Shown: positions 9,224 through 30,190 of the stretch, in pieces
Position numbering within the stretch: position 1 is the first letter of the stretch
Layout of the letters: each line of letters opens with the position of its first letter
From: Granulosicoccus sp.
GTDB lineage: Bacteria > Pseudomonadota > Gammaproteobacteria > Granulosicoccales > Granulosicoccaceae
Assembly (NCBI GenBank): GCA_023300375.1
Contig: JALZWO010000090.1
Coordinates: 1 to 57,474, forward strand
Reading direction: 5' to 3'
Length of the DNA stretch: 57,474 nucleotides
The notes under the pieces: generated by a model
What the model was told of the DNA's origin: nothing
The model's input: the letters and a program-made list of their open reading frames with translations, nothing else
Database searches by the model: none
Program-made: the position numbers and the translations under genes

Positions 9224-9275
9224 TGTGCCATCAATTTAACCCTCATATAGTGTGGGAACCACTACGGGGGATGAT

Positions 9276-12200
9276 ATGAACACTACAAAAGCAATATACA
9301 GCAAAACCAACGCCTATTTATTACCCAATAAATACAGAAGAATGCTTGGCGTAGCCGCCTTAAGCATAGTCTTTACAACATCAACGTATGCGCAAGATAA
9401 CGCTGGATTTGCAGATGATTTCAGCACGGATTCCACGCGTCTTAACGGCGGTGCTTTCGACAATGCAGGGGGACCCGCCGTATTTGAGCAGCGGAGTGAT
9501 GGCGTAGGGCTGCAGGCGGAATCAGATAGCCTGGATGCACCAGCCAGTTTATTCTTAGAAGCCAACAATGAGCCCGGACGCTTTGGCATAGATATCACAC
9601 AGCGTCCCTCCACTATTATTGATGGCGATGGTATCTCCACTGTCTTCCTTGAAGCTCGGGTATTTTCCAACAGAACCCTGCAAGAAAATCGTTTTAACCC
9701 ACCCGGTACTATTGATGCACAAATCGCCTACAACGTGAATAGAGAAGGTAGCAGTTCAGCAAATTTCTGTGTATTCGAAACACAAGACGATGGCAATTCA
9801 CAACCCATAGGTGATGGAGATGAGCAGTTCTGTGGAACTTTAGCGTCACTTGATTCAGGTTTTGATATACGCCGCTCGATAGATATCGTTGCTGATCTCG
9901 AGGCCAGGTCAATCGTCTTTTCTATCGATGGTACATCGCGCACAGTAATTATTCCAGGCGATGAACCTCTGTTTGAACCTGCACAGAATTTTCGACGAAT
10001 GCAACTCTGGTCGTTCAATACAGTGGGCACGGTACGCGGCACATTGCACACCATGCGTATAGCTGATGAGACGATTAACTTCGCAGACACGGTACCCACA
10101 TTTACTCAATACAGAGCGCTCTTTGATGTTGATAACATTCAACGCTTTTCCAGCGTAGAAAATGGCATGCTCCGCCTAACAGCGCGGGCCACCGAAGAGA
10201 ATAATTTCCGTAACCGCCTACAGTTGGCAGAGCCCACTGATTATCTCGAGGCCACACTCACCCTTTCATCAGAGTCTACTCTTGATGTAGACGGTCGCGT
10301 CAGAGCAAGCATTGAAATGTTCCTGTACAACGATCTGGCCGATGGAGGTACCGATGGCCAAACAGGTGATGTTGTCGGCTTCATTGAAGCTGAAATACGC
10401 GTTAGGGGTCGTTCCAGTCTTGAGTACTGCCTGGCTCGACGTGACACCCCTGATGGAAATAACGACCGCGGTTTACTCGATAATGGAGAGCGTTGTGGTA
10501 ACTTGCCCGTCAGCGTGCAGTTTGATCAACCACTACGAGTCTCTATGGCGCTTGATCGCGACAACGGGACAGTCACATTCCGCGTTGACGATCAAGTGCA
10601 TGTACAGGCCGTTGACGGCCCGTTCTTCCAAGCCAGCGAGCTATTTCTAGCAGTAGCAGCCGCATCAAGTGATTTAGCCAATACAGTGATGTTGGTCGAC
10701 GATTTACGAACCTCAGAAGCCTCTCTCACCAATACAGAAACTGCCACAGGGATAGCAACCCCACCCGCTTTTCCTGAACCAGCCGGACCACCAGCACCCG
10801 CTGATAACACGCTGACCTACCCGTTACCCGATGAGGCACCTGCACTGGATTTCATTGATGATTTCTCAAACCCGTCAGTGACGCATTTTGGACTTGAAAC
10901 AAACAGCGAGGAAGGCACTTACGGAGTGGCTTCTATTCCTGGTGCCATTCGCCTTGAGTCCACACAAATAGAGGGTGAGCCTATTTGTTGTGCAGATGTC
11001 AGGCTCAAATCTTCAGGTCGCTCCGATAGCGTATCGGCACGCGTCAGCATTTCCAGTGAAAGCAACTTACCAATTGAAAGTTCAGCGCGCGCTCGTGTGA
11101 TGGTGCGATCACAGCTATGGAACAACACACAAGATTTTGGGCTCGATGACGAGGTCGGGGATGTCACTATTGAAATGTTTATTGAGCTGCGTGGCGATGG
11201 TGAGCGTAATGCGGAAGCATGTGCCCGTGTTCGTACATCCGATGACAACGACGAACAGCTTGATATGTTCAATGGTGACAACTGCATGCGTTTTGCAACA
11301 CTCCCACAGTTTGATGAGCAATATACCTTGGCAATGTCTATTGATCGCCAGACATCGATACTGAGCTTGTCCATTAATGAGGAGACGGTTGAGGTTGATA
11401 TTGGTGGCACCGCCTTTCTTCCCAATGTACAACGCATTGAAGTGGGCAATCGGCACGAGGGTAGCTCGGGGCGTGCAGTGGGCTTAGTGCATGCTATTAG
11501 CACTGACAATTTCACGGATGATTTCGCAGGCACCATACCGTTGTTCGCACCCTATCGACCCTTGTTTGCCACGCAACAAAATGGCGCAACGGTCACCGTT
11601 GATGATGAAAGATTGCGTTTAACTCATGATTCAGCCATTAATGCAGATAACCGACCGCGGTTTGTGTCACGTAGTCCCTCTGAATTTGTCGCTGCAACGC
11701 TTGAGATCTCGAGCGAATCCAGAGTAGTCACCGGCTCAGTGGACGTCTCTGTAGGTGGTCATTTATACAATGACATTGCAGATGGCGGCATCAATGATGA
11801 TGAAGGCGCTGTTTTTGCCATTGCGGGTCTAGTGGCTAATGGAGACGGAGAATTGTTCATCGAATACTGCGGAATACGCTCAAACACAGATAATTTCAGC
11901 GATACCACGCAAATTGTCAGCAGTGATACAGAAAACTGCCCACGCTTTGACACACCACTATTGCTGGACACTCCCTACAGAATGTCTATTGCATTAGATC
12001 GTGAAAGAGGCGTCATAGTGTTTGGCCTGAACGATCAAACACGAGAGCATCCAATTAGCACAGGCATATTCACGCCATCGTCTTACTTTCAGGGCATACG
12101 CGCTAATTCGAGAGACGGTTCGGCTATCGTGGCCTTTGCCGACGATTTAGCGTTTACTGCCAATGCCGTACCACTCGCAGATTCACAAGCGCTGGTCGGT

Positions 12201-12446
12201 ACAGTAGTAGTGAGCAATGATACTGCTGAGCCAGTCGTGGATCCCACTGAGGCTGATCCAGTGGTCACGCCTCCTGTTGTCACACCGCCTGCAGTCAATC
12301 CAATAGATGATGCAACGGGCGGTTCAAGCAGCAGCAGTAGTGATGGCTTGTTTGGTTGCAGCATAGCCGGCGGCTCAGGGGGGCTGCAGGCACCTCTGTT
12401 CTTAGTATTTGCTTTGCTGGCAATCCGCCGACTACGCAAGAGGTAG
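9276..12446 (+). CDS. Large exported four-repeat surface protein with C-terminal sorting signal
   Basis: 1056 residues from the ATG at 9276, which has GGGGG five bases upstream. A long signal peptide ends near residue 40 (TSTYAQ). Four beta-rich repeats of about 215 residues follow. Each has a Cys pair (FCV...QFCG, YCLA...RCGN, ACAR...NCMR, YCGI...NCPR) followed by a strand pair such as RVSMALDRDNGTVTFRV, and most carry an (A)xLxISSES strand. This resembles LamG/concanavalin-type jelly rolls, but no family is certain. Repeats 1 and 3 open with FxDDFS; repeats 2 and 4 open with a YRxLF motif. A proline-rich linker follows each pair, so the layout is two copies of an A-B-linker block. The tail is poly-Ser, GGSGG, a hydrophobic stretch and RRLRKR, like GlyGly-CTERM sorting signals. 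Confidence 0.85.
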   Translation: MNTTKAIYSKTNAYLLPNKYRRMLGVAALSIVFTTSTYAQDNAGFADDFSTDSTRLNGGAFDNAGGPAVFEQRSDGVGLQAESDSLDAPASLFLEANNEPGRFGIDITQRPSTIIDGDGISTVFLEARVFSNRTLQENRFNPPGTIDAQIAYNVNREGSSSANFCVFETQDDGNSQPIGDGDEQFCGTLASLDSGFDIRRSIDIVADLEARSIVFSIDGTSRTVIIPGDEPLFEPAQNFRRMQLWSFNTVGTVRGTLHTMRIADETINFADTVPTFTQYRALFDVDNIQRFSSVENGMLRLTARATEENNFRNRLQLAEPTDYLEATLTLSSESTLDVDGRVRASIEMFLYNDLADGGTDGQTGDVVGFIEAEIRVRGRSSLEYCLARRDTPDGNNDRGLLDNGERCGNLPVSVQFDQPLRVSMALDRDNGTVTFRVDDQVHVQAVDGPFFQASELFLAVAAASSDLANTVMLVDDLRTSEASLTNTETATGIATPPAFPEPAGPPAPADNTLTYPLPDEAPALDFIDDFSNPSVTHFGLETNSEEGTYGVASIPGAIRLESTQIEGEPICCADVRLKSSGRSDSVSARVSISSESNLPIESSARARVMVRSQLWNNTQDFGLDDEVGDVTIEMFIELRGDGERNAEACARVRTSDDNDEQLDMFNGDNCMRFATLPQFDEQYTLAMSIDRQTSILSLSINEETVEVDIGGTAFLPNVQRIEVGNRHEGSSGRAVGLVHAISTDNFTDDFAGTIPLFAPYRPLFATQQNGATVTVDDERLRLTHDSAINADNRPRFVSRSPSEFVAATLEISSESRVVTGSVDVSVGGHLYNDIADGGINDDEGAVFAIAGLVANGDGELFIEYCGIRSNTDNFSDTTQIVSSDTENCPRFDTPLLLDTPYRMSIALDRERGVIVFGLNDQTREHPISTGIFTPSSYFQGIRANSRDGSAIVAFADDLAFTANAVPLADSQALVGTVVVSNDTAEPVVDPTEADPVVTPPVVTPPAVNPIDDATGGSSSSSSDGLFGCSIAGGSGGLQAPLFLVFALLAIRRLRKR

Positions 12447-17473: not shown

Positions 17474-18181
17474 TTACGATTTGAGCTCACTGGTGACAAA
17501 TTCGCCAGTGCGTGTGTAATGCGACAGCAAGAGCTTTACGGCAAGTTCAACATCCCTAGCCAGCACAGCGTCACAAATCATGCTGTGCTCATTGTTGATG
17601 TCGCGCTCTGGGTAGGCGGTGCGCGTAGATAACTGGCGATAGCGCACATTTTGATCATATAACTGAGAACAAAATTTAATCAGAATTGATGAGTCGCATT
17701 CACTTAACAGGGTTTCATGAAACACCTTGTGTAGTGCTTCCCAATCGGCCGGCGTAGCGCAATCTTCCTTATCGTGTAAACGCGACAGCCGCGATAAGCG
17801 ATGATTTGTCAACACAAGTTCTTCTTCCCACTTCGCACTTCGATTAGCCATCGACTCACGTAATGCTTTTTCCTCTAACCAGCAACGTGTTCTCAATAAC
17901 TCCGAGTATTCACGCTCACTGACCTGACACACACGAAAGCCTTTCTGATCTATGCGATCAACCAGTGAATCAGACGTTAATAAACTTAATGCTTCGCGTA
18001 GCGGGCTTGAACCTACGCCGTAAATCGACCTTAGTTCTTCGATCTTCAAGCGTAAACCGGGGGCAAGTTTGGCGCACATGATGTCACGGCGCAAGGAGAG
18101 GTACACGCGCTGGGTTATCGACTCGCCCGAGCCACTGTCGGGCAACAGGCGAAGTTCCAGCGCTGATTCATGTAGAGCCAA
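17474..18181 (-). CDS. GntR-family transcriptional regulator with FCD domain
   Basis: 235 residues. The winged helix spans about residues 20-90 (RVYLSLRRDIMCAKLAPG, VGSSPLREALSLL), with the FCD ligand domain after it. Likely metal/ligand His residues are visible in HKVFHETLL, NNEHSMI and LLSHYTR. Start is probably TTG 18181, two bases after the TAA of the hydrolase gene, so translation is coupled. FCD regulators usually repress catabolic operons and respond to an organic acid. Here the obvious targets are the divergent genes of the adjacent catabolic locus, through the inverted repeat at 19754-19771. Confidence 0.88.
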   Translation of the reverse strand: MALHESALELRLLPDSGSGESITQRVYLSLRRDIMCAKLAPGLRLKIEELRSIYGVGSSPLREALSLLTSDSLVDRIDQKGFRVCQVSEREYSELLRTRCWLEEKALRESMANRSAKWEEELVLTNHRLSRLSRLHDKEDCATPADWEALHKVFHETLLSECDSSILIKFCSQLYDQNVRYRQLSTRTAYPERDINNEHSMICDAVLARDVELAVKLLLSHYTRTGEFVTSELKS

Positions 18182-18183
18182 GA

Positions 18184-19251
18184 TTATTCTGCAGGTAGCC
18201 TAAGCGAAATCAAATCAGTACCTACAATGGTCTTACCCTCGTATCCGCTTTCAGCTACGGCATCTTCGTAATCACTCTCCGACAAACCACCACCAGGAAT
18301 AGGAAATGGCCCTTGTCTTTTGGCATTCAGCGATGGAATTAGATGTGTCAGCATTAAGTGACTGGCACCAGCGCGTTTCGCCATAGCGCCTAGATCAGTA
18401 GCCGTGCTTTGACGAAAATACACGGGCGGTGGAAACCCACTGTCGTTATCAGGCCCCATCACCGGATGTATTGTAGAGTGAACAATAATATCAACCCCCA
18501 TAGACAGCTCCTCCACCTGCGCAGACGTTGACGAATCGCGCGGCGGGACGTTTTTGTCATTACCTGCATCGCCGCCAATAACAACACTGCCAGCGGGTGT
18601 ATTGACGCGGTAGGATGCGTGTCCGGGAATATGCCGGCTGTTAATAGCCTGTACGGTAACATCACCCGATGACCAGACAACTTCAGGTTCTTTAAGATCA
18701 CCAAACGCCACCACGTTGATCAAACCTGTTGGACCTTCAGCTAGTCGTTGCGGATTCTCTAGCAGCCTTTGAGCAATCTCTCCTGATTCAACCAGCGCAT
18801 CGCCGATGTGTTTTGCAAATGAGCGGCCACTCAAGGTATGACCAGCGGGAGATTGTTTATCATCGCTGACCACTAAGTCTACTTTTGGCCCTTGTGAGTT
18901 GAAATGCCAGCGAAGTTGCATTAGCTCGGTAAGTCCCTCGGTATGATCTGAATGCATGTGAGTGATGAATACAGCATCCAACTTGCCTACCTGAACATTG
19001 ACTTGGGACAAACGTTGCGTTGTGCCACGGCCAACATCAAACTGTAAAGCAAGGTCGGTACAACCTGTCTCTGAATCTCCATATTGAACTAGCGTACCTG
19101 CACCCGCCAAACCTTGGAATACAGGTGGCCCCCCTTGCGTGCCTGTGAGAGTGACCACCAGGCAAGGCTCTGCAATAGCCGCTGGGCTAGCAAATGACAG
19201 CGCCGCTGCGATCAACGTTGCAAGAGGGGCTAGGTAAATTCTATTGCTCAT
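18184..19251 (-). CDS. Exported metallo-beta-lactamase-fold hydrolase
   Basis: 355 residues. A signal peptide (TLIAAALSFASPAAIA, cleaved near residue 27) is followed by the MBL fold with the zinc motif THMHSDHTEG (His98, His100, Asp102, His103), a later His in SRHIPGHAS, GGDAGND and LMLTHLIP. The pattern is of the RNase Z/arylsulfatase-like branch rather than true beta-lactamases. A periplasmic hydrolase in a catabolic cluster could release the transported acid from an ester, sulfate ester or lactone; that is inference. GGAG lies 11 bases before the ATG. The GntR gene follows two bases after its stop. Confidence 0.85.
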   Translation of the reverse strand: MSNRIYLAPLATLIAAALSFASPAAIAEPCLVVTLTGTQGGPPVFQGLAGAGTLVQYGDSETGCTDLALQFDVGRGTTQRLSQVNVQVGKLDAVFITHMHSDHTEGLTELMQLRWHFNSQGPKVDLVVSDDKQSPAGHTLSGRSFAKHIGDALVESGEIAQRLLENPQRLAEGPTGLINVVAFGDLKEPEVVWSSGDVTVQAINSRHIPGHASYRVNTPAGSVVIGGDAGNDKNVPPRDSSTSAQVEELSMGVDIIVHSTIHPVMGPDNDSGFPPPVYFRQSTATDLGAMAKRAGASHLMLTHLIPSLNAKRQGPFPIPGGGLSESDYEDAVAESGYEGKTIVGTDLISLRLPAE

Positions 19252-19338
19252 GATGTTTAATGCTCCATTGCTCTGTGGGTTCGGGATTAAGACTGTAGTT
19301 GCAACACGACAGTTTACAAACTGCGTTTAAACACTCGG

Positions 19339-19725
19339 TTAAGACACGGACACACTTTGGGTTGAAAGCGCAGCAGAGAATTGCAAAGAACCCTCATTGA
19401 CGAGCCAGCGCCGAAGTCGGTAACTGCGCACGTTTTCAACATGCATGGGATCTTCATTTGCCAGTGCAACAGCTTCGTCCCAACTCTCACATCGGTAAAT
19501 GACCAGACCCGAGGCTTGCATAAGAGTGCCGGTGTCATCTGATAAAGGACCCGCTAGAAAAAGTTTACCGGCAGCCTCAAGTGCTTTTTGATAGGCAAGG
19601 TGACGCGGCAACACAGCCTTGAGTGTCTCTTCATCAGCTATGGGCGTGCTCTCAACCGCAAACAGTTCAAGCGCAAGAGCGCCGCGTTCTTTAGCGTGAG
19701 ACTTATAAGCATTCCAATCTGGCAT
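19339..19725 (-). CDS. YciI-like dimeric alpha/beta-barrel protein
   Basis: 128 residues. It matches the YCII-related family: LPRHLAYQKALEAAGKLFLA, then GPLSDDTGTLMQASGLVIYR and the SWDEAVALANEDPMH segment with an invariant-type His. Relatives share the fold of muconolactone isomerase and related small ring-opening or isomerase enzymes. In this locus it could act on a lactone or ring-fission product, but no catalytic role is proven for YciI proteins. AGGA precedes the ATG. The gene is divergent from the reductase gene and separated from the downstream hydrolase gene by about 87 bases. Confidence 0.82.
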   Translation of the reverse strand: MPDWNAYKSHAKERGALALELFAVESTPIADEETLKAVLPRHLAYQKALEAAGKLFLAGPLSDDTGTLMQASGLVIYRCESWDEAVALANEDPMHVENVRSYRLRRWLVNEGSLQFSAALSTQSVSVS

Positions 19726-19753
19726 TGACGACTATCCTATTTGACTTTTTGGC

Positions 19754-19771
19754 AATCAATAGTAATTGATT
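19754..19771. promoter_or_regulatory. Perfect 7-4-7 inverted repeat, candidate GntR operator
   Basis: AATCAAT-AGTA-ATTGATT lies in the 120-base divergent region between the YciI-like gene and the reductase gene. A second half-site-like TTGATC occurs at about 19795. FCD-type GntR regulators bind short AT-rich inverted repeats of this size. The regulator gene is the last gene of the leftward arm, making it the natural ligand for the site. Confidence 0.6.
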
Positions 19772-19849
19772 AATAATAAAAGTGGATTTTTATTGATCTA
19801 AGACAAAAATGTGGGTATTTTGAGTAATCCAATACGAGAGAGCAAGTTT

Positions 19850-20518
19850 GTGAGCGCAAGTGACACTGAACAAAACCTAGAGCAACAACGCTCAGCAGCG
19901 CAACAAGATATTCGAGATTTAAGACAACGCATCACTCATCTCGACAATGCCTCCATCGAGCTCATTCTTTCAAAAGCGCGGTCGCACTACGCGTGGACAG
20001 ACGCGCCGATATCCGAGCAGCAAATACGCACTCTCTACGACATCATCAAAATGGGCTCTACCAGTATGAACGGTTGCCCTGCCCGTTTTGTGTTTGTCAC
20101 TAGTGACGAAGGCAAAGCAAAAATAGCTAAATCACTAAAGCCTGCCAATCTTGCAAAAGTTGTTGGTGCACCACTCACTGTCATTGTTGCGTACGACCGC
20201 GAATTCTGGAAAGAACTGCCGTATCTCTTCCCGCATGAAGACAGGCGTCCTATGTTTGCGAACAACGAAGAATACAGCGTAGATACCGCGTATCGCAATT
20301 CAACCTTGCAGGGCGCGTACCTTATGATTGCTGCCAGAGCCATGGGATTTGATATTGGTGCCATGAGTGGCTTTTCCAATCAGGTTATCGACGATGAATT
20401 CTTCGCCGGCACCACCGTTCGTTCCAATTTTTTATGCAACATAGGCGTCGCTGATGAAACAGCACTGTTTCAGCGCCTACCTCGATTTGAATTCGATCAA
20501 GCTTGCACCATTGTCTAA
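19850..20518 (+). CDS. RutE/HadB-like flavin reductase (malonic semialdehyde reductase family)
   Basis: About 222 residues from GTG 19850, with GAGAG upstream; GTG 19811 would add 13. The nitroreductase-fold RutE subgroup is recognised from ARSHYAWTDAPISEQQIRTL, KMGSTSMNGCPARFVFV, VGAPLTVIVAYDREFWK, LFPHEDRRPMF, TAYRNSTLQGAYLMIAARA and GAMSGFSNQVIDDEFF. RutE reduces malonic semialdehyde to 3-hydroxypropionate in pyrimidine degradation, but no other rut gene is present here. It may instead reduce a semialdehyde or nitro compound formed in this pathway. The first gene of the rightward arm, it is followed by the TRAP transporter. Confidence 0.85.
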   Translation: MSASDTEQNLEQQRSAAQQDIRDLRQRITHLDNASIELILSKARSHYAWTDAPISEQQIRTLYDIIKMGSTSMNGCPARFVFVTSDEGKAKIAKSLKPANLAKVVGAPLTVIVAYDREFWKELPYLFPHEDRRPMFANNEEYSVDTAYRNSTLQGAYLMIAARAMGFDIGAMSGFSNQVIDDEFFAGTTVRSNFLCNIGVADETALFQRLPRFEFDQACTIV

Positions 20519-20695
20519 CCTGTTTGCACAAATCAGACTGTTGCCCAAAAGTGCAGTCAAGTGGCCTAATTTCTTAGTATTTATTGTTGAGGTTGTATCA
20601 GTAAAAAAATAGAGAAACACAAAAATCGGCAAAACAAACCCGGCCTGACCTCAGCCGTTTTGATAGCCGATACATCAAATGTCCAGAGGAATTGT

Positions 20696-21793
20696 ATGAC
20701 GATCACGCACAAGAGAAACACACTAGGAATTCTAGCTTTTGCGACGGCAACACTGTTCGCAGGTGTACTACCTTCAACGGTTAGTGCTACTGAATCGCTC
20801 AGCATGATTGCTATTGACGGCTACCCAGAACGATCTATGTGGGTAAGAGAATTTTCCGATTTCTTTATTCCACGAGTTAATGAAGAGCTGGCCAAATCGG
20901 GTAACTATTCTGTAAATTGGCAAGAAGCTTACGGTGGTCAAATTGTTAAGCCTCGTGGTGTATTAGAAGGTATAAAACTCGGACTCGGCGACATTGGTAT
21001 CGTCACTACAATTTTTCATAACTCAGCACTACCTAGTCAAGGTATCTCAGCGGTCACGCCATTCATTGCTGCAGATGCGCGAGTGGTAGCAACGGCTGTT
21101 GATGAAATTGCACGCGAATTTCCTCAAATGAACAAAGAGCTGGATGCAGAAAATCAAGTGTATCTGGCCACAGGCGTTGTCCTGGACACCTATCAAGTGT
21201 TCTCGAAAACCCCCATTAGTTCTTTAGCTGATCTGGAAGGCCAAAAAGTAGCAGGTGCTGGATACAATCTTCGCTATCTGGAAGGCATCGAAGGGGCTGC
21301 GGGTGTGCGTGGTGGTTTACCCAATTTTTATAACATGCTGCAAACAGGCTTGGTTGATGCAGCGATGCTTTGGCCTGAATCAGCAATGACTTTCAAGATC
21401 GGAGAAGTAGCACCCTATATGCTCAAGGTTGACCTTGGTGCAGTCAATTCAAAGACTGTCACCGTCAATAAAGACGTATGGGAACAACTCCCTGATGAAG
21501 TAAAACAGGTGTTGCAATCGGTGGCCGTGGAATACCGCGACCATATTGCTTCTATTGCTATGGACGCCGCAGCCGTGTCTTTAGAGGCTTACATCGCCGC
21601 TGGCGGTGAAGTGACTGAACTCTCAGCCGAGGCACGCGCCGACTGGGCAAACTCAATGCCTAACATTGCGAAAGACTGGGCAGAGACGCTGGATCAATCT
21701 GGTGCGCAAGGCTCGGATATGCTCCGTGCCTACATGGATAAGTTAAAAGCTGCCGGATTTACACCGGTAAGAGATTGGGCCGCAGAGCTATAG
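20696..21793 (+). CDS. dctP: TRAP transporter solute-binding protein (DctP family)
   Basis: 365 residues from the ATG at 20696, selected for AGAGGA upstream; an ATT-type upstream extension is not supported. A signal peptide (LAFATATLFAGVLPSTVSA) precedes a DctP-fold binding protein with NWQEAYGGQIVKPRGVLEGI, the hinge region KVAGAGYNLRYLEG and NMLQTGLVDAAMLWPESAM. It captures a carboxylate in the periplasm and hands it to the membrane subunits encoded next. The ligand is unknown; linkage to the dioxygenase suggests an aromatic or other organic acid. Confidence 0.92.
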   Translation: MTITHKRNTLGILAFATATLFAGVLPSTVSATESLSMIAIDGYPERSMWVREFSDFFIPRVNEELAKSGNYSVNWQEAYGGQIVKPRGVLEGIKLGLGDIGIVTTIFHNSALPSQGISAVTPFIAADARVVATAVDEIAREFPQMNKELDAENQVYLATGVVLDTYQVFSKTPISSLADLEGQKVAGAGYNLRYLEGIEGAAGVRGGLPNFYNMLQTGLVDAAMLWPESAMTFKIGEVAPYMLKVDLGAVNSKTVTVNKDVWEQLPDEVKQVLQSVAVEYRDHIASIAMDAAAVSLEAYIAAGGEVTELSAEARADWANSMPNIAKDWAETLDQSGAQGSDMLRAYMDKLKAAGFTPVRDWAAEL

Positions 21794-21845
21794 ATCAAAT
21801 AAGAAGTAATAGATACTTAATTCTTCGCGCAAATCGAGGCGAGTA

Positions 21846-22487
21846 ATGAAAGTGGCAAAAGCGGTAGGCGCAACGTTTTATAGGCTTGCTATGGCTTCAA
21901 ATGCGCTTGGCACCTTGGTTATTTTTGGCCTTATAGTCGTGATGAACGCCGACGTTTTTTCCCGAAACTTTCTCGACGCACCTATCCGCGGTGTTGTCGA
22001 GATGGTTATCTTCTCGCTGGTGCTTATTGTTTTTCTACAGCTACCTGATGTAGTACGAAAAAACCGCTTAACGCGCTCTGATGGTTTTCTAGTAATAGGC
22101 CGATCTCGATTCCCCGCAGTGGCCAACATACTCGATCGAGCCATCGACATAAGCGCAGGCATTTTCATGGCATTAATCACGTGGATTATGTGGCCCGAAT
22201 TGGTTGAAACATTTGAATCCTGCCACTTCCTCACTGCCCCAGAATTCGGGCCAGCACAAACCGGCGAGCTGCTGGTTGATCTAAAAACCGCTTTAGCACG
22301 CTGCGATTACTTTGGTACCCCTGGAATTTTCACAGCCCCCTGGTGGCCTGCAAACCTTGCCATCACTTTCAGCACAGCTCTGTGTTCTATCCTGTTCTTC
22401 TTAAAGGCCATACTCGGTGAACATGCTGTAGTGGCTGAAGGCCCAGCTGATGTAATACCGGCTGCTGTAAGAGATAAAAAGGTATGA
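21846..22487 (+). CDS. dctQ: TRAP transporter small permease (DctQ family)
   Basis: 213 residues, four membrane helices; the DctQ core is visible as VVMNADVFSRNFLDAPIRGV, EMVIFSLVLIVFLQLP. It is longer than the usual 160-180 residues because of an insert around residues 125-160 (CHFLTAPEFGPAQTGELL). GAGGCGAG precedes the ATG. Its 3' end overlaps the DctM gene by four bases (ATGA), a coupled pair. Confidence 0.9.
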   Translation: MKVAKAVGATFYRLAMASNALGTLVIFGLIVVMNADVFSRNFLDAPIRGVVEMVIFSLVLIVFLQLPDVVRKNRLTRSDGFLVIGRSRFPAVANILDRAIDISAGIFMALITWIMWPELVETFESCHFLTAPEFGPAQTGELLVDLKTALARCDYFGTPGIFTAPWWPANLAITFSTALCSILFFLKAILGEHAVVAEGPADVIPAAVRDKKV

Positions 22488-23794
22488 CGCCAGTAGAAGT
22501 CGGATCACTGTCTGTTGTGGCCATCATTGTTTTAATCTACCTTGGCTTTTATATCCCGGTCGCGTTAGGGCTCGTCTCGTTTGCCTCTATCTGGATAATC
22601 AGCGACAAACCCATTCTAGCGTTCAACTTCTTGAAAGTTGCTGTGGGTGATGGCGTCACCGAATACCCTTTTGCCACTATTCCTCTATTTACTGTGATGG
22701 GGCTACTGGTGTCGAAGGCGGGTCTTGGAACAGACATCTATACCGTGCTTAATCGCATGTTCATTAAGCTCACTGGCGGTATAGGCATGGCCACGGTAGG
22801 CGCAAACGCCATATTTGCAGCGGTTACAGGCTCGTCCATAGCCTCCGCCTCTGTGTTTACTCGTATAGCTGTGCCTGAGATGCGTAAGCTAAACTACAAC
22901 AAGCGTTTTGCTGTAGGCGTGGTTGCAGGCTCCTCAGTGCTAGGTATGATTATCCCTCCCAGTGCCATGCTCATCATTTACTCTTTCGTTTCAGAGCAAT
23001 CGGTGGGCGATATGTTTTTGGCGGGTATCGTGCCCGGCTTAATATTAGCCTCAGCCTATATTGCCTGGATATTTATTGCCTCAAGAATACGCCCCTCCTA
23101 CCTTGGTACGAATCTTCATTCGCACCAAAGCCAAGCGTTGTCTTGGTTTGAAATCATTGACAAAACGGTACCCACCATTGGCTTGATCACTGTTGTGCTC
23201 GGCGGCATTTATACCGGCTGGCTCACCCCCGTTGAAGCCGGTGCAACGGGCGCCTTAGCAGCGTTTGTTATCGCTTTAATGCGGCGCTCAATAACGGTAA
23301 AAGGGCTTTGGGAGACAGCGCTAGAGACAGGCCACATAACCGCAGCTATTTTATTCCTCATTGCTATGGCATCACTGTACAGCCGCATGTTGGGATATGC
23401 AGGGTTACCCAATGCATTAGAATCGATACTGCAAACCTACGAACTTGGCTTTGTCGAGGTCATGACAATTTATGTGTTGCTGATGTTGTTCCTCGGTACC
23501 ATTTTGGACACCGCATCCATCATTCTTATTGTGGTACCTCTATTCATCACCTTGGTTGAATCCATGGGTATGAGCCTTGTCTGGTTTGGTATCGTCACGG
23601 TTATAGGGGCAGAAATAGGCCTACTGACTCCTCCTTTGGGAATCTCTTGCTTTGTCATTAAAACGAGCCTGAATGATCCAGAGATCTCTTTGAAGGATGT
23701 CTTTCTGGGCGCACTACCCTTTGCGTTCATCATGCTGCTGGTGCTGATTGTTCTAATACGCTTTCCGGTGTTGTCCATCGGCATTCTGGGCTAG
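22484..23794 (+). CDS. dctM: TRAP transporter large permease (DctM family)
   Basis: 436 residues, about 12 membrane spans. Typical DctM segments are AVTGSSIASASVFTRIAVPE, SVLGMIIPPSAMLIIYSFVS, GWLTPVEAGATGA and LLTPPLGISCFVIK. It forms the sodium-driven transport channel with DctQ and receives substrate from the binding protein encoded upstream. It overlaps the DctQ gene by four bases. Confidence 0.94.
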   Translation: MTPVEVGSLSVVAIIVLIYLGFYIPVALGLVSFASIWIISDKPILAFNFLKVAVGDGVTEYPFATIPLFTVMGLLVSKAGLGTDIYTVLNRMFIKLTGGIGMATVGANAIFAAVTGSSIASASVFTRIAVPEMRKLNYNKRFAVGVVAGSSVLGMIIPPSAMLIIYSFVSEQSVGDMFLAGIVPGLILASAYIAWIFIASRIRPSYLGTNLHSHQSQALSWFEIIDKTVPTIGLITVVLGGIYTGWLTPVEAGATGALAAFVIALMRRSITVKGLWETALETGHITAAILFLIAMASLYSRMLGYAGLPNALESILQTYELGFVEVMTIYVLLMLFLGTILDTASIILIVVPLFITLVESMGMSLVWFGIVTVIGAEIGLLTPPLGISCFVIKTSLNDPEISLKDVFLGALPFAFIMLLVLIVLIRFPVLSIGILG

Positions 23795-23866
23795 TCCTAT
23801 GCACAAATATATCGCACTTAAAAAGATGCCCTTGCCTCATAACCTCATTAATAACGAGTTGCCCAC

Positions 23867-24745
23867 ATGCGCACAGTAAGCACTGACACAATCACTCAGT
23901 CGTTCATTGACTATATGGGCGAAGACACCGACGAACGCACACGCGTGGTGCTCTGTTCACTGGTTAAGCACTTGCATAACTTCGCCCGAGAAACTGAACT
24001 TACCCACGATGAATGGCGAAAGGGACTTGAGTTGTTGTTCGCAGCGGGGTCTATTTCCTCACCTGAACGCAATGAATTTGTTCTGTTCTCAGACGTGCTT
24101 GGAATGTCCTCCTTGGTTGACATGATGCATTCCTCCGCAGAGGCAACGCCGTCAAGCGTGCTAGGCCCATTTCATGTGCTGGGTGCACCAGAGCTGGCTG
24201 TGGGCGGTGATATGCGTGGAGACAACGACGGTGAAGCTGTTGTCGTGTCAGGCAAAGTGCTGAGCACTGATGGCAGTATGATTAAAGGTGCCACTCTAGA
24301 AATTTGGCAAACCGCAGAAAACGGCCTGTACTCAGGCCAAGATGCAGCTCAGCCAGAATACAATTTACGCGCTCGCATGAAATCGGCAACTGATGGTCGC
24401 TATTTATTTTCAACCGTTCGGCCAGCGCCTTACACTGTGCCCGAAGACGGGCCTGTGGGCGAGCTGCTGCGTGCAACAGGAAGACAGCCTTGGCGTCCGT
24501 CTCACCTTCACTTTATTGTATCGGCGCCGGGGCACAAAACACTAGTCACAGAGGTGTTCCCGAGTGACGATCCTTATCTGGACAAGGATGCTGTTTTTGG
24601 TGTTAGAGAACGATTGATTATGGAATACAAACCTGACACGAACCATGAAAATTTACCTGATGAGCTAGCCATTAAATCAAAGCTGGCAGATGAATCGTTT
24701 TTCACGGTAAATTTCGATTTTATTTTGAAAACCACATCCAACTGA
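23867..24745 (+). CDS. Intradiol ring-cleavage dioxygenase, hydroxyquinol 1,2-dioxygenase-like
   Basis: 292 residues. An N-terminal Dioxygenase_N domain (about 20-95) precedes the catalytic sandwich. The iron ligands are all visible: Tyr155 (NGLYSGQD), Tyr189 (PAPYTVPEDGPVG), His213 and His215 (WRPSHLHF). The PxPEDGPVGELL...GRQPWRPSHLHF pattern is that of hydroxyquinol 1,2-dioxygenases rather than plain catechol enzymes. These insert O2 between adjacent hydroxyls; hydroxyquinol would give maleylacetate. No maleylacetate reductase gene is seen nearby, so the real substrate may differ. It follows the TRAP genes after 72 bases. Confidence 0.92.
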   Translation: MRTVSTDTITQSFIDYMGEDTDERTRVVLCSLVKHLHNFARETELTHDEWRKGLELLFAAGSISSPERNEFVLFSDVLGMSSLVDMMHSSAEATPSSVLGPFHVLGAPELAVGGDMRGDNDGEAVVVSGKVLSTDGSMIKGATLEIWQTAENGLYSGQDAAQPEYNLRARMKSATDGRYLFSTVRPAPYTVPEDGPVGELLRATGRQPWRPSHLHFIVSAPGHKTLVTEVFPSDDPYLDKDAVFGVRERLIMEYKPDTNHENLPDELAIKSKLADESFFTVNFDFILKTTSN

Positions 24746-24811
24746 CAATCTGTTGTCCATATACTGGATAACCAATATCACTGTTTGTACATGGATAAAG
24801 GAGTAATTTGA

Positions 24812-25792
24812 ATGCATGTCGGTTTTATAGGATTAGGCAATGTTGGATCTAAACTCGCTGGAAGCGTTATTCGCAATAGCCTACGGCTGAGTGTTCTGGA
24901 TCTGGATTTACGTGCTGCAGATCCGCTTGTACAACAAGGTGCAACGCTCGGTCGTAATCCCAGACAAATGGCTGAAGATTGCGATGTACTGATCACTTGC
25001 CTACCCTCACCCGCCGCTAGTGCCGCAGTAATAGAAAACCCAGATGAAGGTGTACTGGCGGGGATAACATCAGGAACTGTCTGGGCCGAGATGAGTACCA
25101 CCGATGAAGCGGAGGTACTCCGATTGGGCGCCAAGATTATCAACGCTGGTGGCCTAGCGGTAGATTGTCCTGTGAGTGGTGGATGCCATCGGGCAGCCAC
25201 AGGAAACATTGCTATCTTGGCAGGCTGTGATCGTTCCACCTTTGACAAGGTATTGCCCGTGTTAACCACCATGGGGCGTCGAATTCTACACACAGGCGAG
25301 CTGGGTACCGCATCAAAACTAAAGGTGATGACTAACTATTTGGCCACGGCTAATCTTCTGACGTTGTGCGAGGCATTAGTCACCAGCAAAGCCTCTGGTC
25401 TGGATCTGGCCGTAACCTACGAAGCCATAAAAATCTCCAGCGGCAATTCATTTGTCCATGAAACTGAAAGCCAGGTCATTCTCAATGGTTCTCGCGACAT
25501 TAACTTCACTATGGATTTAGTGCTTAAAGATATCGGCTTGTTTCAACAAATGGCCGAGCGAGCTGGAGTCCCCCTGGAAATCAGCCCTCTAATGATTGAT
25601 ATTATGAAAGACGGAGCTGCCCGCTACGGTGAACGCGAAGGATCACCTAATATTATTCGTCGCTTGGAGGAGGCTTGCAATGTGCAAGTGTTAGCCGATG
25701 GATTTCCTGCACAAATGATCGATGATGAACCCGAAGCACCCGGCTACGAAATAAAACCAAACACCGCGTCTTCACGAGCTATTTACGCTTAA
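24812..25792 (+). CDS. Beta-hydroxyacid dehydrogenase (3-hydroxyisobutyrate dehydrogenase family)
   Basis: 326 residues. The NAD(P) motif GFIGLGNVG is at 4-12, the substrate loop CPVSGGCHRAATG at 119-131, and the catalytic KVMTNYL with Lys171 and Asn175 is intact. Family members oxidise or reduce short beta-hydroxyacids/semialdehydes such as 3-hydroxyisobutyrate or tartronate semialdehyde. AAGGAG lies nine bases before the ATG. A weak palindrome (TCCA-N5-TGGA, 24756-24768) in the leader may be regulatory. In this locus it probably handles a ring-fission-derived hydroxyacid. The C-terminal 40 residues extend beyond the usual length. Confidence 0.88.
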   Translation: MHVGFIGLGNVGSKLAGSVIRNSLRLSVLDLDLRAADPLVQQGATLGRNPRQMAEDCDVLITCLPSPAASAAVIENPDEGVLAGITSGTVWAEMSTTDEAEVLRLGAKIINAGGLAVDCPVSGGCHRAATGNIAILAGCDRSTFDKVLPVLTTMGRRILHTGELGTASKLKVMTNYLATANLLTLCEALVTSKASGLDLAVTYEAIKISSGNSFVHETESQVILNGSRDINFTMDLVLKDIGLFQQMAERAGVPLEISPLMIDIMKDGAARYGEREGSPNIIRRLEEACNVQVLADGFPAQMIDDEPEAPGYEIKPNTASSRAIYA

Positions 25793-25835
25793 ACATGACC
25801 TCCGCACAAAGATGTTTGAAGAATGTCACTCTACT

Positions 25836-25847
25836 CACACCGGTGTG
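25836..25847. promoter_or_regulatory. Perfect 12-bp palindrome upstream of the FAH-family gene
   Basis: CACACCGGTGTG lies about 70 bases before the ATG at 25915, in the 122-base gap that separates this gene from the dehydrogenase gene. It may be an operator or a chance palindrome. It is unlike the AT-rich repeat at 19754. Confidence 0.3.
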
Positions 25848-25914
25848 TCCAACACCATTGATACACCAGTAAGCTGTTCAATTAACCGTCACTTACCACA
25901 TTAGGATATTTTCT

Positions 25915-26850
25915 ATGCATTTGGGTACCGTTCTTATTAATGCCAAGTCCACCACAGCCGTACTGCTGGATGACGGCACTGTTTTGGACATCGCAGCCGC
26001 CGCAGTGACTCACACAGGCGATGTAGCTGATGCGCTGAAGTTGGGAAGCATGCTACACATTGTGGACCTTGGAGACGAAGCTGTATCTGCTATTAAAACT
26101 CTGGTTAGCGAGGCAAAAAGTGGTCAGCACAAAGACGCTCTGCATGCACTTACCGACATTTCATTACTAGCGCCCATACCCGTGCCACGCAAAAATGTTT
26201 TTTGTGTTGGCCGCAACTACTTAGAACATGTAGCTGAGGGCGACAAAGCCCAAAACAATAAGGTAGGTGTTAGCGAATACCCCGTCTACTTCACCAAAAC
26301 ACCAACTGCAGTAATTGGGCCTCACGCTAAGGTTCCTATCTTCCCTTCAGTGTCAGAAAACATTGATTACGAAGTGGAGCTTGCGGCCGTTATTGGCAAG
26401 TCCGGGCGCAATATCAGCAAAGAGAACGCCTTCAAGCATATCTTTGGTTACACCATCATCAACGACATTACCGCCCGTGATGTGCAACGTCGGCACGGTG
26501 GACAATTTTTTAAAGGCAAGACATTTGATGGCTCATGCCCAACCGGCCCTTGGATAGTCACGGCAGATGCAATTGGCGATCCGCAAAACCTTGATATCAG
26601 CTTAACCGTCAATGGCGAACAGCGCCAAACCGGCAATACCCGTTCAATGATATTTGATATCCCTACCATCATCGCCTCTCTGTCAGAGGGCTTAACACTA
26701 GAATCAGGTGATTTAATCGCCACAGGTACGCCATCAGGTGTGGGGTACGCCATGGACCCACCTAGGTACTTGAAACACGGCGATACTGTTGTGTGCAAAG
26801 TAGAAATCATTGGCGAGCTTGAGAACACGCTAGAGACTACAGCTAGTTAA
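25915..26850 (+). CDS. Fumarylacetoacetate hydrolase family enzyme
   Basis: 311 residues. The FAH domain starts after a variable N-terminus: NVFCVGRNYLEHVAEGD, TKTPTAVIGPHA, IDYEVELAAVIGKSGRNI (metal Glu residues), INDITARDVQRRH (metal Asp), GKTFDGSCPTGPW and DLIATGTPSGVG. Related enzymes cleave acylpyruvates or hydrate/decarboxylate ring-fission products of aromatic catabolism. This is the last gene of the rightward arm and probably does the final C-C cleavage of the pathway. AGGA lies before the ATG. Confidence 0.9.
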   Translation: MHLGTVLINAKSTTAVLLDDGTVLDIAAAAVTHTGDVADALKLGSMLHIVDLGDEAVSAIKTLVSEAKSGQHKDALHALTDISLLAPIPVPRKNVFCVGRNYLEHVAEGDKAQNNKVGVSEYPVYFTKTPTAVIGPHAKVPIFPSVSENIDYEVELAAVIGKSGRNISKENAFKHIFGYTIINDITARDVQRRHGGQFFKGKTFDGSCPTGPWIVTADAIGDPQNLDISLTVNGEQRQTGNTRSMIFDIPTIIASLSEGLTLESGDLIATGTPSGVGYAMDPPRYLKHGDTVVCKVEIIGELENTLETTAS

Positions 26851-27048
26851 CTTTACGGTTTGCAGGATGATGTGCACAACATTGAGTTTACAGAATGCCG
26901 ATTGAAGGTGGCGGCGCATAAAACCGCTGCCTTAATGTTGGTAACAGTCGCTCCAATACAGCCGTTGAGCGGCCAGTATAGTGTCCGGTTTGACAAATTA
27001 ATTGTCGCCGAACAACAGCCTGCAAACTTATCACCCAACAACATTAAA

Positions 27049-29242: not shown

Positions 29243-30112
29243 TCACTGTTTTAACGCATTTAAAGGCACCTTAAGAGAGGGTCTGCCCTGTTCATCAGAC
29301 GGTATAACACCTGCTCTCATATTGACCTGTATAGAGGGAATAATTAACTTCGGCACAGCGAGCTGGGCATCACGCTCGGTACGAAACATGACAAAATCTT
29401 CTCGGCTCTGCCCATTGCCCACATGAATATTGCGCGCGCGTTCCTCAGCAACCGTTGTCTCCCATTGTATCTCACGGCCGTTAGCACCGTAGTCGTGGCA
29501 CATGAACAAACGCATCTCGTCGGGGAGCAATAATATTTTCTGTATTGAATCGTACAGCTCGCCTGCGTCACCGCCCGGAAAATCTGCTCTGGCAGAACCG
29601 CTATCTGGCATGAATAGCGTGTCGCCTATGAACGCTGCATTACCAATGACATGCACCATACAAGCTGGCGTATGCCCGGGAGTAGCAATGACTCGGGCTT
29701 GCATTGAGCCAATGCGGTAGGTGTCCCCATCACTAAACAAGGCATCGAACTGACTACCATCTCGTTGAAATTCTGTGCCCTCATTGAAAATCTTGCCAAA
29801 CGTCTCCTGAACAACCGTTATTTTTTCGCCGATACCAAGCTTGCCGCCTAGTTTCTCTTGGATATACGGTGCAGCTGATAAATGATCGGCATGCACATGG
29901 GTTTCGATCAACCACTCAAGTGTCAACTCATTGTCTTTGATGAACGCGATTATTTCATCGGCTTTGTCGTGTGTAATCTGACCCGCTGCATAGTCAATAT
30001 CCATCACTGAGTCGATAACAGCACAGGAGCTGGAATTGGGATCTTTTACCACATAGCTAATGGTGTTGGTGGCTTGATCAAAAAAGCCTGTGACTTCGGA
30101 GATGATATTCAT
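29243..30112 (-). CDS. blh: Blh-type persulfide (sulfur) dioxygenase, MBL fold
   Basis: 289 residues from ATG 30112; ATG 30175 is in frame, but orthologues begin with NIxxEVTGFFD, matching 30112. The iron site is ETHVHADHLSA (His72, His74, Asp76, His77), with GHTPACMVHV and the family signature GDTLFMPDSGSARADFPGGD. It oxidises glutathione persulfide to sulfite, detoxifying sulfide-derived sulfane sulfur in the cytoplasm. Blh is usually controlled by the ArsR-type BigR. Here it is the last gene of an apparent operon with a two-component system and a Gate-domain membrane protein, which is unusual. Confidence 0.9.
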   Translation of the reverse strand: MNIISEVTGFFDQATNTISYVVKDPNSSSCAVIDSVMDIDYAAGQITHDKADEIIAFIKDNELTLEWLIETHVHADHLSAAPYIQEKLGGKLGIGEKITVVQETFGKIFNEGTEFQRDGSQFDALFSDGDTYRIGSMQARVIATPGHTPACMVHVIGNAAFIGDTLFMPDSGSARADFPGGDAGELYDSIQKILLLPDEMRLFMCHDYGANGREIQWETTVAEERARNIHVGNGQSREDFVMFRTERDAQLAVPKLIIPSIQVNMRAGVIPSDEQGRPSLKVPLNALKQ

Positions 30113-30190
30113 AGACGAACACGTGGCCTTAGTTACGACGCTAATTAGTACACCGGAAACAATATCAGGTGCCATGCTAGTGGGACTTTT

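Follow-up and report, generated by a model that had tools for sequence, protein, structure and literature searches.

How is the product of a hydroxyquinol-type ring cleavage processed further if the maleylacetate reductase (MAR) of the known pathway is missing? This question is raised by a gene cluster at positions 17474-26850 of a contig of 57,474 nt, of which the full length was analysed (the window) and which belongs to a Granulosicoccus sp. assembly (G000; 4.58 Mb, completeness 97.5%). Kelp microbiomes include this genus (PMC9238374). The sequence-only reading had placed a hydroxyquinol-type dioxygenase at the centre of a possibly undescribed catabolic pathway, and this has held; the unit recurs in other genomes, and in the literature searched the gene set is undescribed and no described pathway matches it; the paper on kelp metagenome-assembled genomes (PMC9238374) does not mention aromatics. 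With a probability of roughly 0.85, the genes form one catabolic unit of the hydroxyquinol type that lacks MAR.

The conserved unit and its dioxygenase

The cluster comprises ten intact open reading frames (ORFs) rather than the nine genes initially counted, and all families that had been named were confirmed by Pfam/NCBIfam matches. YciI, the metallo-beta-lactamase (MBL) fold gene and GntR follow each other leftward, with a gap of 2 nt between the latter two, and diverge from a rightward strand with the order RutE-like gene, DctP, DctQ, DctM, dioxygenase, dehydrogenase and FAH:

17474-18181, minus strand: GntR/FCD-family regulator (PF00392, PF07729), final gene of the leftward YciI-MBL-GntR strand
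18184-19251, minus strand: exported MBL-fold hydrolase, accessory, possibly arylsulfatase-like (PF00753, Lactamase_B), with the hydrophobic N-terminus MSNRIYLAPLATLIAAALSFASPAAIA
19339-19725, minus strand: YciI-family protein (PF03795, YCII)
19726-19810, no strand: divergent promoter region between YciI and the RutE-like gene, with a promoter-like motif and a palindrome
19811-20518, plus strand: RutE-like FMN nitroreductase, proposed hydroxybenzoquinone reductase with a TcpB-like role (PRK05365, 259 bits at a cutoff of 152)
20660-21793, plus strand: TRAP substrate-binding protein DctP (PF03480)
21846-22487, plus strand: TRAP small permease DctQ (PF04290)
22484-23794, plus strand: TRAP large permease DctM (PF06808; TIGR00786 above cutoff)
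23867-24745, plus strand: intradiol dioxygenase from a clade that is sister to the hydroxyquinol 1,2-dioxygenases (PF04444 and PF00775, Dioxygenase_N and Dioxygenase_C)
24812-25792, plus strand: beta-hydroxyacid dehydrogenase, probably accessory (PF03446 and PF14833, NAD_binding_2/11)
25915-26850, plus strand: FAH-family C-C hydrolase, proposed acylpyruvate hydrolase (PF01557, FAA_hydrolase)
26910-26931, plus strand: weak terminator-like hairpin 3' of FAH, of a kind that shuffled sequence yields about equally often

For a comparison of gene content, about 20 kb around the dioxygenase were fetched from relatives and from other Pseudomonadota, and the counts given here refer to 35 other loci of the dioxygenase clade described below and to 12 loci of the reference clade. 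Eight genes (YciI, the RutE-like reductase, DctP, DctQ, DctM, the intradiol dioxygenase, FAH and GntR) constitute a conserved unit that spans Granulosicoccus, its relatives and Alphaproteobacteria. Some 22 loci from several genera have YciI, the RutE-like reductase, DctPQM and the dioxygenase together, mostly along with GntR, and the core gene order recurs far above chance. YciI is present in 22 of the 35 clade loci and GntR in most of them, and in many loci an OsmC-like gene lies between RutE and DctP. Syntenic copies in other genomes were found for these eight genes, but hardly for the remaining two: the MBL gene occurs in three of the 35 loci (L031, L042 and L043) and the beta-hydroxyacid dehydrogenase in none, being confined to the copy of this genome, for which reason the dehydrogenase was rejected as a pathway step. 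In the operon of G008, which is the same record as L042 and whose dioxygenase is 91% identical to that of the window, FAH directly follows the dioxygenase and there is no dehydrogenase. The plasmid pDY25-C of Pacificitalea manganoxidans carries the same core with FAH, adjoined by an annotated malonyl-CoA synthase and a malonyl-CoA decarboxylase (MCD).

MAR adjoins 10 of the 12 reference-clade dioxygenases and none of the 35 others of the new clade, and its absence, which had been a local observation, now extends to the entire genome. A search of the whole G000 assembly yielded only a partial match of 32% identity to an iron-type alcohol dehydrogenase (Fe-ADH; C57:39214-39942), so that a MAR hidden elsewhere in this genome was rejected. 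The pathway could still be the classical one if that diverged Fe-ADH, which the query matches only in part, served as MAR, but enzymes of this weak type (29-36% identity) are found in relatives both with and without the cluster, whereas true MARs, in genomes that have one, show 50-52% identity over nearly the full length. Together with the lack of any MAR near the 35 clade dioxygenases, this makes the classical pathway improbable. Of the relatives that carry the cluster, only G022 has a real MAR anywhere in its genome, and there the gene lies on another contig.

A maximum-likelihood tree built from 57 dioxygenases places the enzyme of the window and 36 others in a new clade that is split with 100/100 support from the clade of the characterised hydroxyquinol enzymes (PnpC, TcpC-type, 1TMX), to which it is sister. 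A group of ring-cleaving dioxygenases is thereby marked out that annotation does not distinguish from hydroxyquinol or catechol dioxygenases, and the lower pathway of which must differ from the known one. The Fe ligands, two Tyr and two His, are present (Y155, Y189, H213 and H215), and so are L73, D76 and R210, the counterparts of L80, D83 and R218 of 1TMX, which we take to be the residues of the hydroxyquinol pocket and which are retained across the clade (37/37, with one gap at R218). Two other pocket positions carry smaller residues, Leu instead of Phe108 (L99 in the window) and Val instead of Ile199 (V191), and the pocket may be slightly roomier and would accommodate an extra substituent; beyond the pocket, His237 is replaced by Glu. 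In the trees of the dioxygenase as well as of the RutE-like protein, the lineage of the window is nested among alphaproteobacterial sequences, which suggests a horizontal transfer.

Uptake and the proposed reductive step

The RutE-like enzyme and the dehydrogenase had initially been taken to indicate semialdehyde and hydroxyacid intermediates. In such a pathway the two enzymes would handle malonic semialdehyde and a hydroxyacid, and the RutE-like protein, about 46% identical to RutE, indeed exceeds the cutoff of the PRK05365 malonic semialdehyde reductase model. In the tree, however, it belongs to a separate clade of 24 rows (100/99 support) that groups neither with the RutE proteins of rut operons, that of E. 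coli included, nor with TcpB, and the dehydrogenase is not seen in any syntenic copy of the cluster outside this genome. Copies of at least 57% identity are, among the relatives, confined to cluster genomes, and the gene shares its operon with, or adjoins, the hydroxyquinol-type dioxygenase. TcpB reduces the quinone. Nitroreductases of the family to which the RutE-like protein belongs also adjoin hydroxyquinol dioxygenase in chlorophenol-type clusters with MAR (L092, L093, L104); on two Cupriavidus plasmids with the gene order tcpRXABCYD (HpaB-type monooxygenase, nitroreductase, dioxygenase, MAR) the nitroreductase lies directly 5' of the dioxygenase, and in Paraburkholderia sp. D15 it lies near dioxygenase and MAR. 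The tcpB product has been described as nitroreductase-like, and TftG acts just before the reduction of hydroxybenzoquinone (PMC3975901). The sole sequence relative of YciI in the PDB is TftG (4lbh), with a weak match (E=0.066). Quinone-level chemistry fits better with the RutE-like clade of its own, the nitroreductases in tcp-type clusters and the relation of YciI to TftG, and quinone reduction is therefore the likelier role, while an involvement in semialdehyde turnover has to be regarded as unlikely.

The TRAP transporter is complete, with DctP, DctQ and DctM encoded together. The closest solved structures of DctP, 4nap and 4pgn, are weak matches, and no firm ligand was obtained from these nearest PDB entries, but related TRAP systems elsewhere adjoin ring-cleavage, YciI and FAH genes. 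Malonate was considered as a substrate, as the malonyl-CoA synthetase MatB and MCD adjoin the TRAP genes in L082, and was rejected in view of the dioxygenase and of the genes of aromatic type that lie next to related TRAP systems. Hydroxybenzoquinones are anions at sea-water pH and would suit a TRAP carrier. The transporter may import such an anionic substrate, plausibly either a hydroxy-p-benzoquinone to which polyhydroxybenzenes are oxidised in sea water or else a phenolic acid of a related kind. By analogy with tcp and tft, the imported compound would be reduced to a tri- or tetrahydroxybenzene by the RutE-like FMN enzyme, possibly assisted by YciI. Alternatively, the unit might mainly detoxify reactive algal quinones and pass little carbon to metabolism. 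The quinone-reductase-type enzyme and the OsmC-like protein in many loci would agree with this, but the dedicated TRAP importer and the malonyl-CoA enzymes favour a use as carbon source, and detoxification as the main function appears very improbable.

The periplasmic MBL-fold enzyme had been suggested to free the substrate before uptake. Its signal-peptide-like N-terminus makes this possible, but the gene is accessory. The best match among solved structures is the MBL-fold arylsulfatase 8gyg (E=9e-11), a weak match mostly around the metal motif, and an AlphaFold model from a three-sequence alignment reached a pLDDT of 36 and was not used. TAXI-type TRAP importer genes adjoin the cluster at L027:16049-20000 and also in L035, L040 and L044, with a sulfatase in some. 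Speculatively, the presence of a sulfatase with TAXI-TRAP, or of MBL, nearby in some genomes would fit sulfated algal phenolics. Outside the conserved cluster, the window encodes another MBL-fold protein (29243-30175), in which no signal peptide is obvious, and an ORF of 1064 aa at 9252-12446 that has no Pfam match.

The lower pathway and its possible substrate

FAH, HMGL or MCD genes adjoin 28 of the 35 new-clade dioxygenases and none of the 12 of the reference clade. FAH alone is found in 18 of the 35 loci, the HMGL-like gene alone in nine, neither in eight, and both in none. There were at least four switches between the two on the dioxygenase tree, and the HMGL-like gene occurs in only seven of the relatives, every one of them with the cluster, which together suggests a single metabolic slot that is filled by either FAH or the HMGL-like enzyme. 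The FAH proteins of the cluster belong to two subfamilies that are 32-37% identical to each other, both with a His-x-x-Glu lid and metal-site motifs (GRNYxxHxxE and DYEVE in the window), and FAH is not above any equivalog cutoff. The HMGL-like DRE-TIM protein of 405 aa is nearest to the isopropylmalate/homocitrate synthase group and below every cutoff. MCD and/or malonyl-CoA synthase adjoin the dioxygenase in six loci (L021, L046, L047, L048, L079 and L082), and in the genome of the window MCD is encoded elsewhere, outside the cluster.

These genes also share a sequence motif. In 13 loci the promoter region next to YciI contains the perfect palindrome AATATCGATATT, and with 0-1 mismatch it occurs at the promoters between YciI and FAH, YciI and RutE, GntR and HMGL, MCD and HMGL, and MCD and the intradiol dioxygenase. 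In G023 it lies, again with 0-1 mismatch, 210 nt upstream of an ortholog of the window-type FAH and just upstream of an orphan GntR gene. A scan of 20 genomes gave 40 matches versus one for a reversed control pattern. Copies outside the cluster lie mostly within ORFs, and when the exact off-cluster sites were scanned for an upstream hydroxylase, no catabolic enzyme stood out. From sequence it is likely that YciI, RutE, FAH, HMGL, MCD and GntR form one regulon via AATATCGATATT, which would be a candidate operator of the cluster GntR, and this GntR protein would control the divergent promoters. The site has diverged in the window, where a different palindrome, AATCAATAGTAATTGATT at 19754-19771, occupies the place that holds AATATCGATATT in most relatives; its core is shared with L042, and a promoter-like TTGGCA-17-AATAAT lies at 19749-19777 on the plus strand. 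The comparison yields in this way a defined gene set together with a candidate operator.

What could be the sequence of reactions? After the reductive step, the intradiol dioxygenase would cleave the ring, in agreement with its family and active site, and FAH, or in other lineages the HMGL-like DRE-TIM enzyme, would cleave the ring-opening product, so that a C-C bond hydrolysis would take the place of maleylacetate reduction. On chemical grounds, 1,2,3,5-tetrahydroxybenzene as the substrate would give 2,4-dioxoadipate, an acylpyruvate, which FAH could split into pyruvate and malonate, and the latter could be converted by malonyl-CoA synthetase and then by MCD. Acylpyruvates are the usual substrate type of the FAH family. 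The exact substrate and products of such a ring-cleavage and hydrolysis route are tentative, somewhat short of even odds, and it is rather unlikely, though worth stating, that the cluster constitutes an undescribed aerobic route for marine polyhydroxybenzenes, in which the product of intradiol cleavage is hydrolysed at a C-C bond into malonate and pyruvate and the unrelated FAH and DRE-TIM enzymes swap in one step. Its substrate, 1,2,3,5-tetrahydroxybenzene or the quinone thereof, could arise from brown-algal phlorotannins. The cluster is a candidate pathway for the recycling of highly oxidised phenolics by marine bacteria associated with algae.

The main rival is that the ring substrate is ordinary hydroxyquinol, which would be opened to maleylacetate, and that this product or its hydrate is converted by FAH or by the HMGL-like enzyme, for example split into maleate and acetate or decarboxylated. 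The complete retention of L80, D83 and R218 (1TMX) in the clade speaks for this, as does the only PDB relative of YciI, which acts shortly before hydroxyquinol, but maleylacetate is not an acylpyruvate, and the neighbouring malonyl-CoA decarboxylase and synthetase would be left unexplained; this rival is doubtful as well.

Several points weigh against the tetrahydroxybenzene route. No upstream hydroxylase was found, and the active site is compatible with hydroxyquinol itself. The proposal is built on chemistry and on the MCD/MatB neighbours in six of the 35 loci, and nearly all relatives without the cluster have MCD as well, for which reason the co-occurrence of MCD was dropped as genome-wide evidence. 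The nearest characterised relatives of the HMGL-like protein are synthases and not lyases, the p value for the mutual exclusion of FAH and HMGL (Fisher p=3e-4) is optimistic, as the genomes share ancestry, and neither the window nor the two relatives closest to it have the exact palindrome.

Comparison with known systems

With the hydroxyquinol pathways (tcpRXABCYD, pnp, tft) the cluster shares the dioxygenase family and pocket, with tcpBC the nitroreductase that adjoins the dioxygenase, and with tft the YciI protein as a distant relative of TftG. Unlike these, it has a dioxygenase of the sister clade and neither MAR nor a monooxygenase, but instead FAH or the HMGL-like enzyme, a TRAP importer and a GntR regulator. 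A MAR-less dioxygenase cluster on a Burkholderia glumae plasmid (L056:7983-15512), with citryl-CoA lyase, CoA-transferase, LeuCD-like hydratase and hydroxylase, has a different, CoA-based lower half. In L055, L057, L060 and L089, hydroxyquinol dioxygenase, MAR, YciI and an NAD(P)-dependent oxidoreductase are found with sugar-type ABC transporters, and the substrate there is perhaps a cyclitol-like compound that is converted to hydroxyquinol.

The ring-cleavage clusters with TRAP and YciI of Leisingera (L095) and Martelella (L094) have a related TRAP transporter and YciI, and in Leisingera also FAH, but VOC or extradiol enzymes replace the intradiol dioxygenase and the lower parts are CoA-dependent; the Leisingera plasmid (L095:1-15080) combines TRAP, YciI, FAH and a VOC dioxygenase with two quinone oxidoreductases and an acetoacetate-CoA ligase. 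The acylpyruvate hydrolases (FAHD1, maleylpyruvate hydrolase and L-2,4-diketo-3-deoxyrhamnonate hydrolase) have the fold family, the His-x-x-Glu lid and the metal-site motifs in common with the FAH of the cluster, which, however, is paired with an intradiol and not with an extradiol or sugar-acid route. The RutE-like protein, finally, resembles the malonic semialdehyde reductase RutE in identity and in its PRK05365 match, but it has an N-terminal extension, forms a clade of its own, is linked to the dioxygenase, and is never found with rutABCD in the cluster loci.

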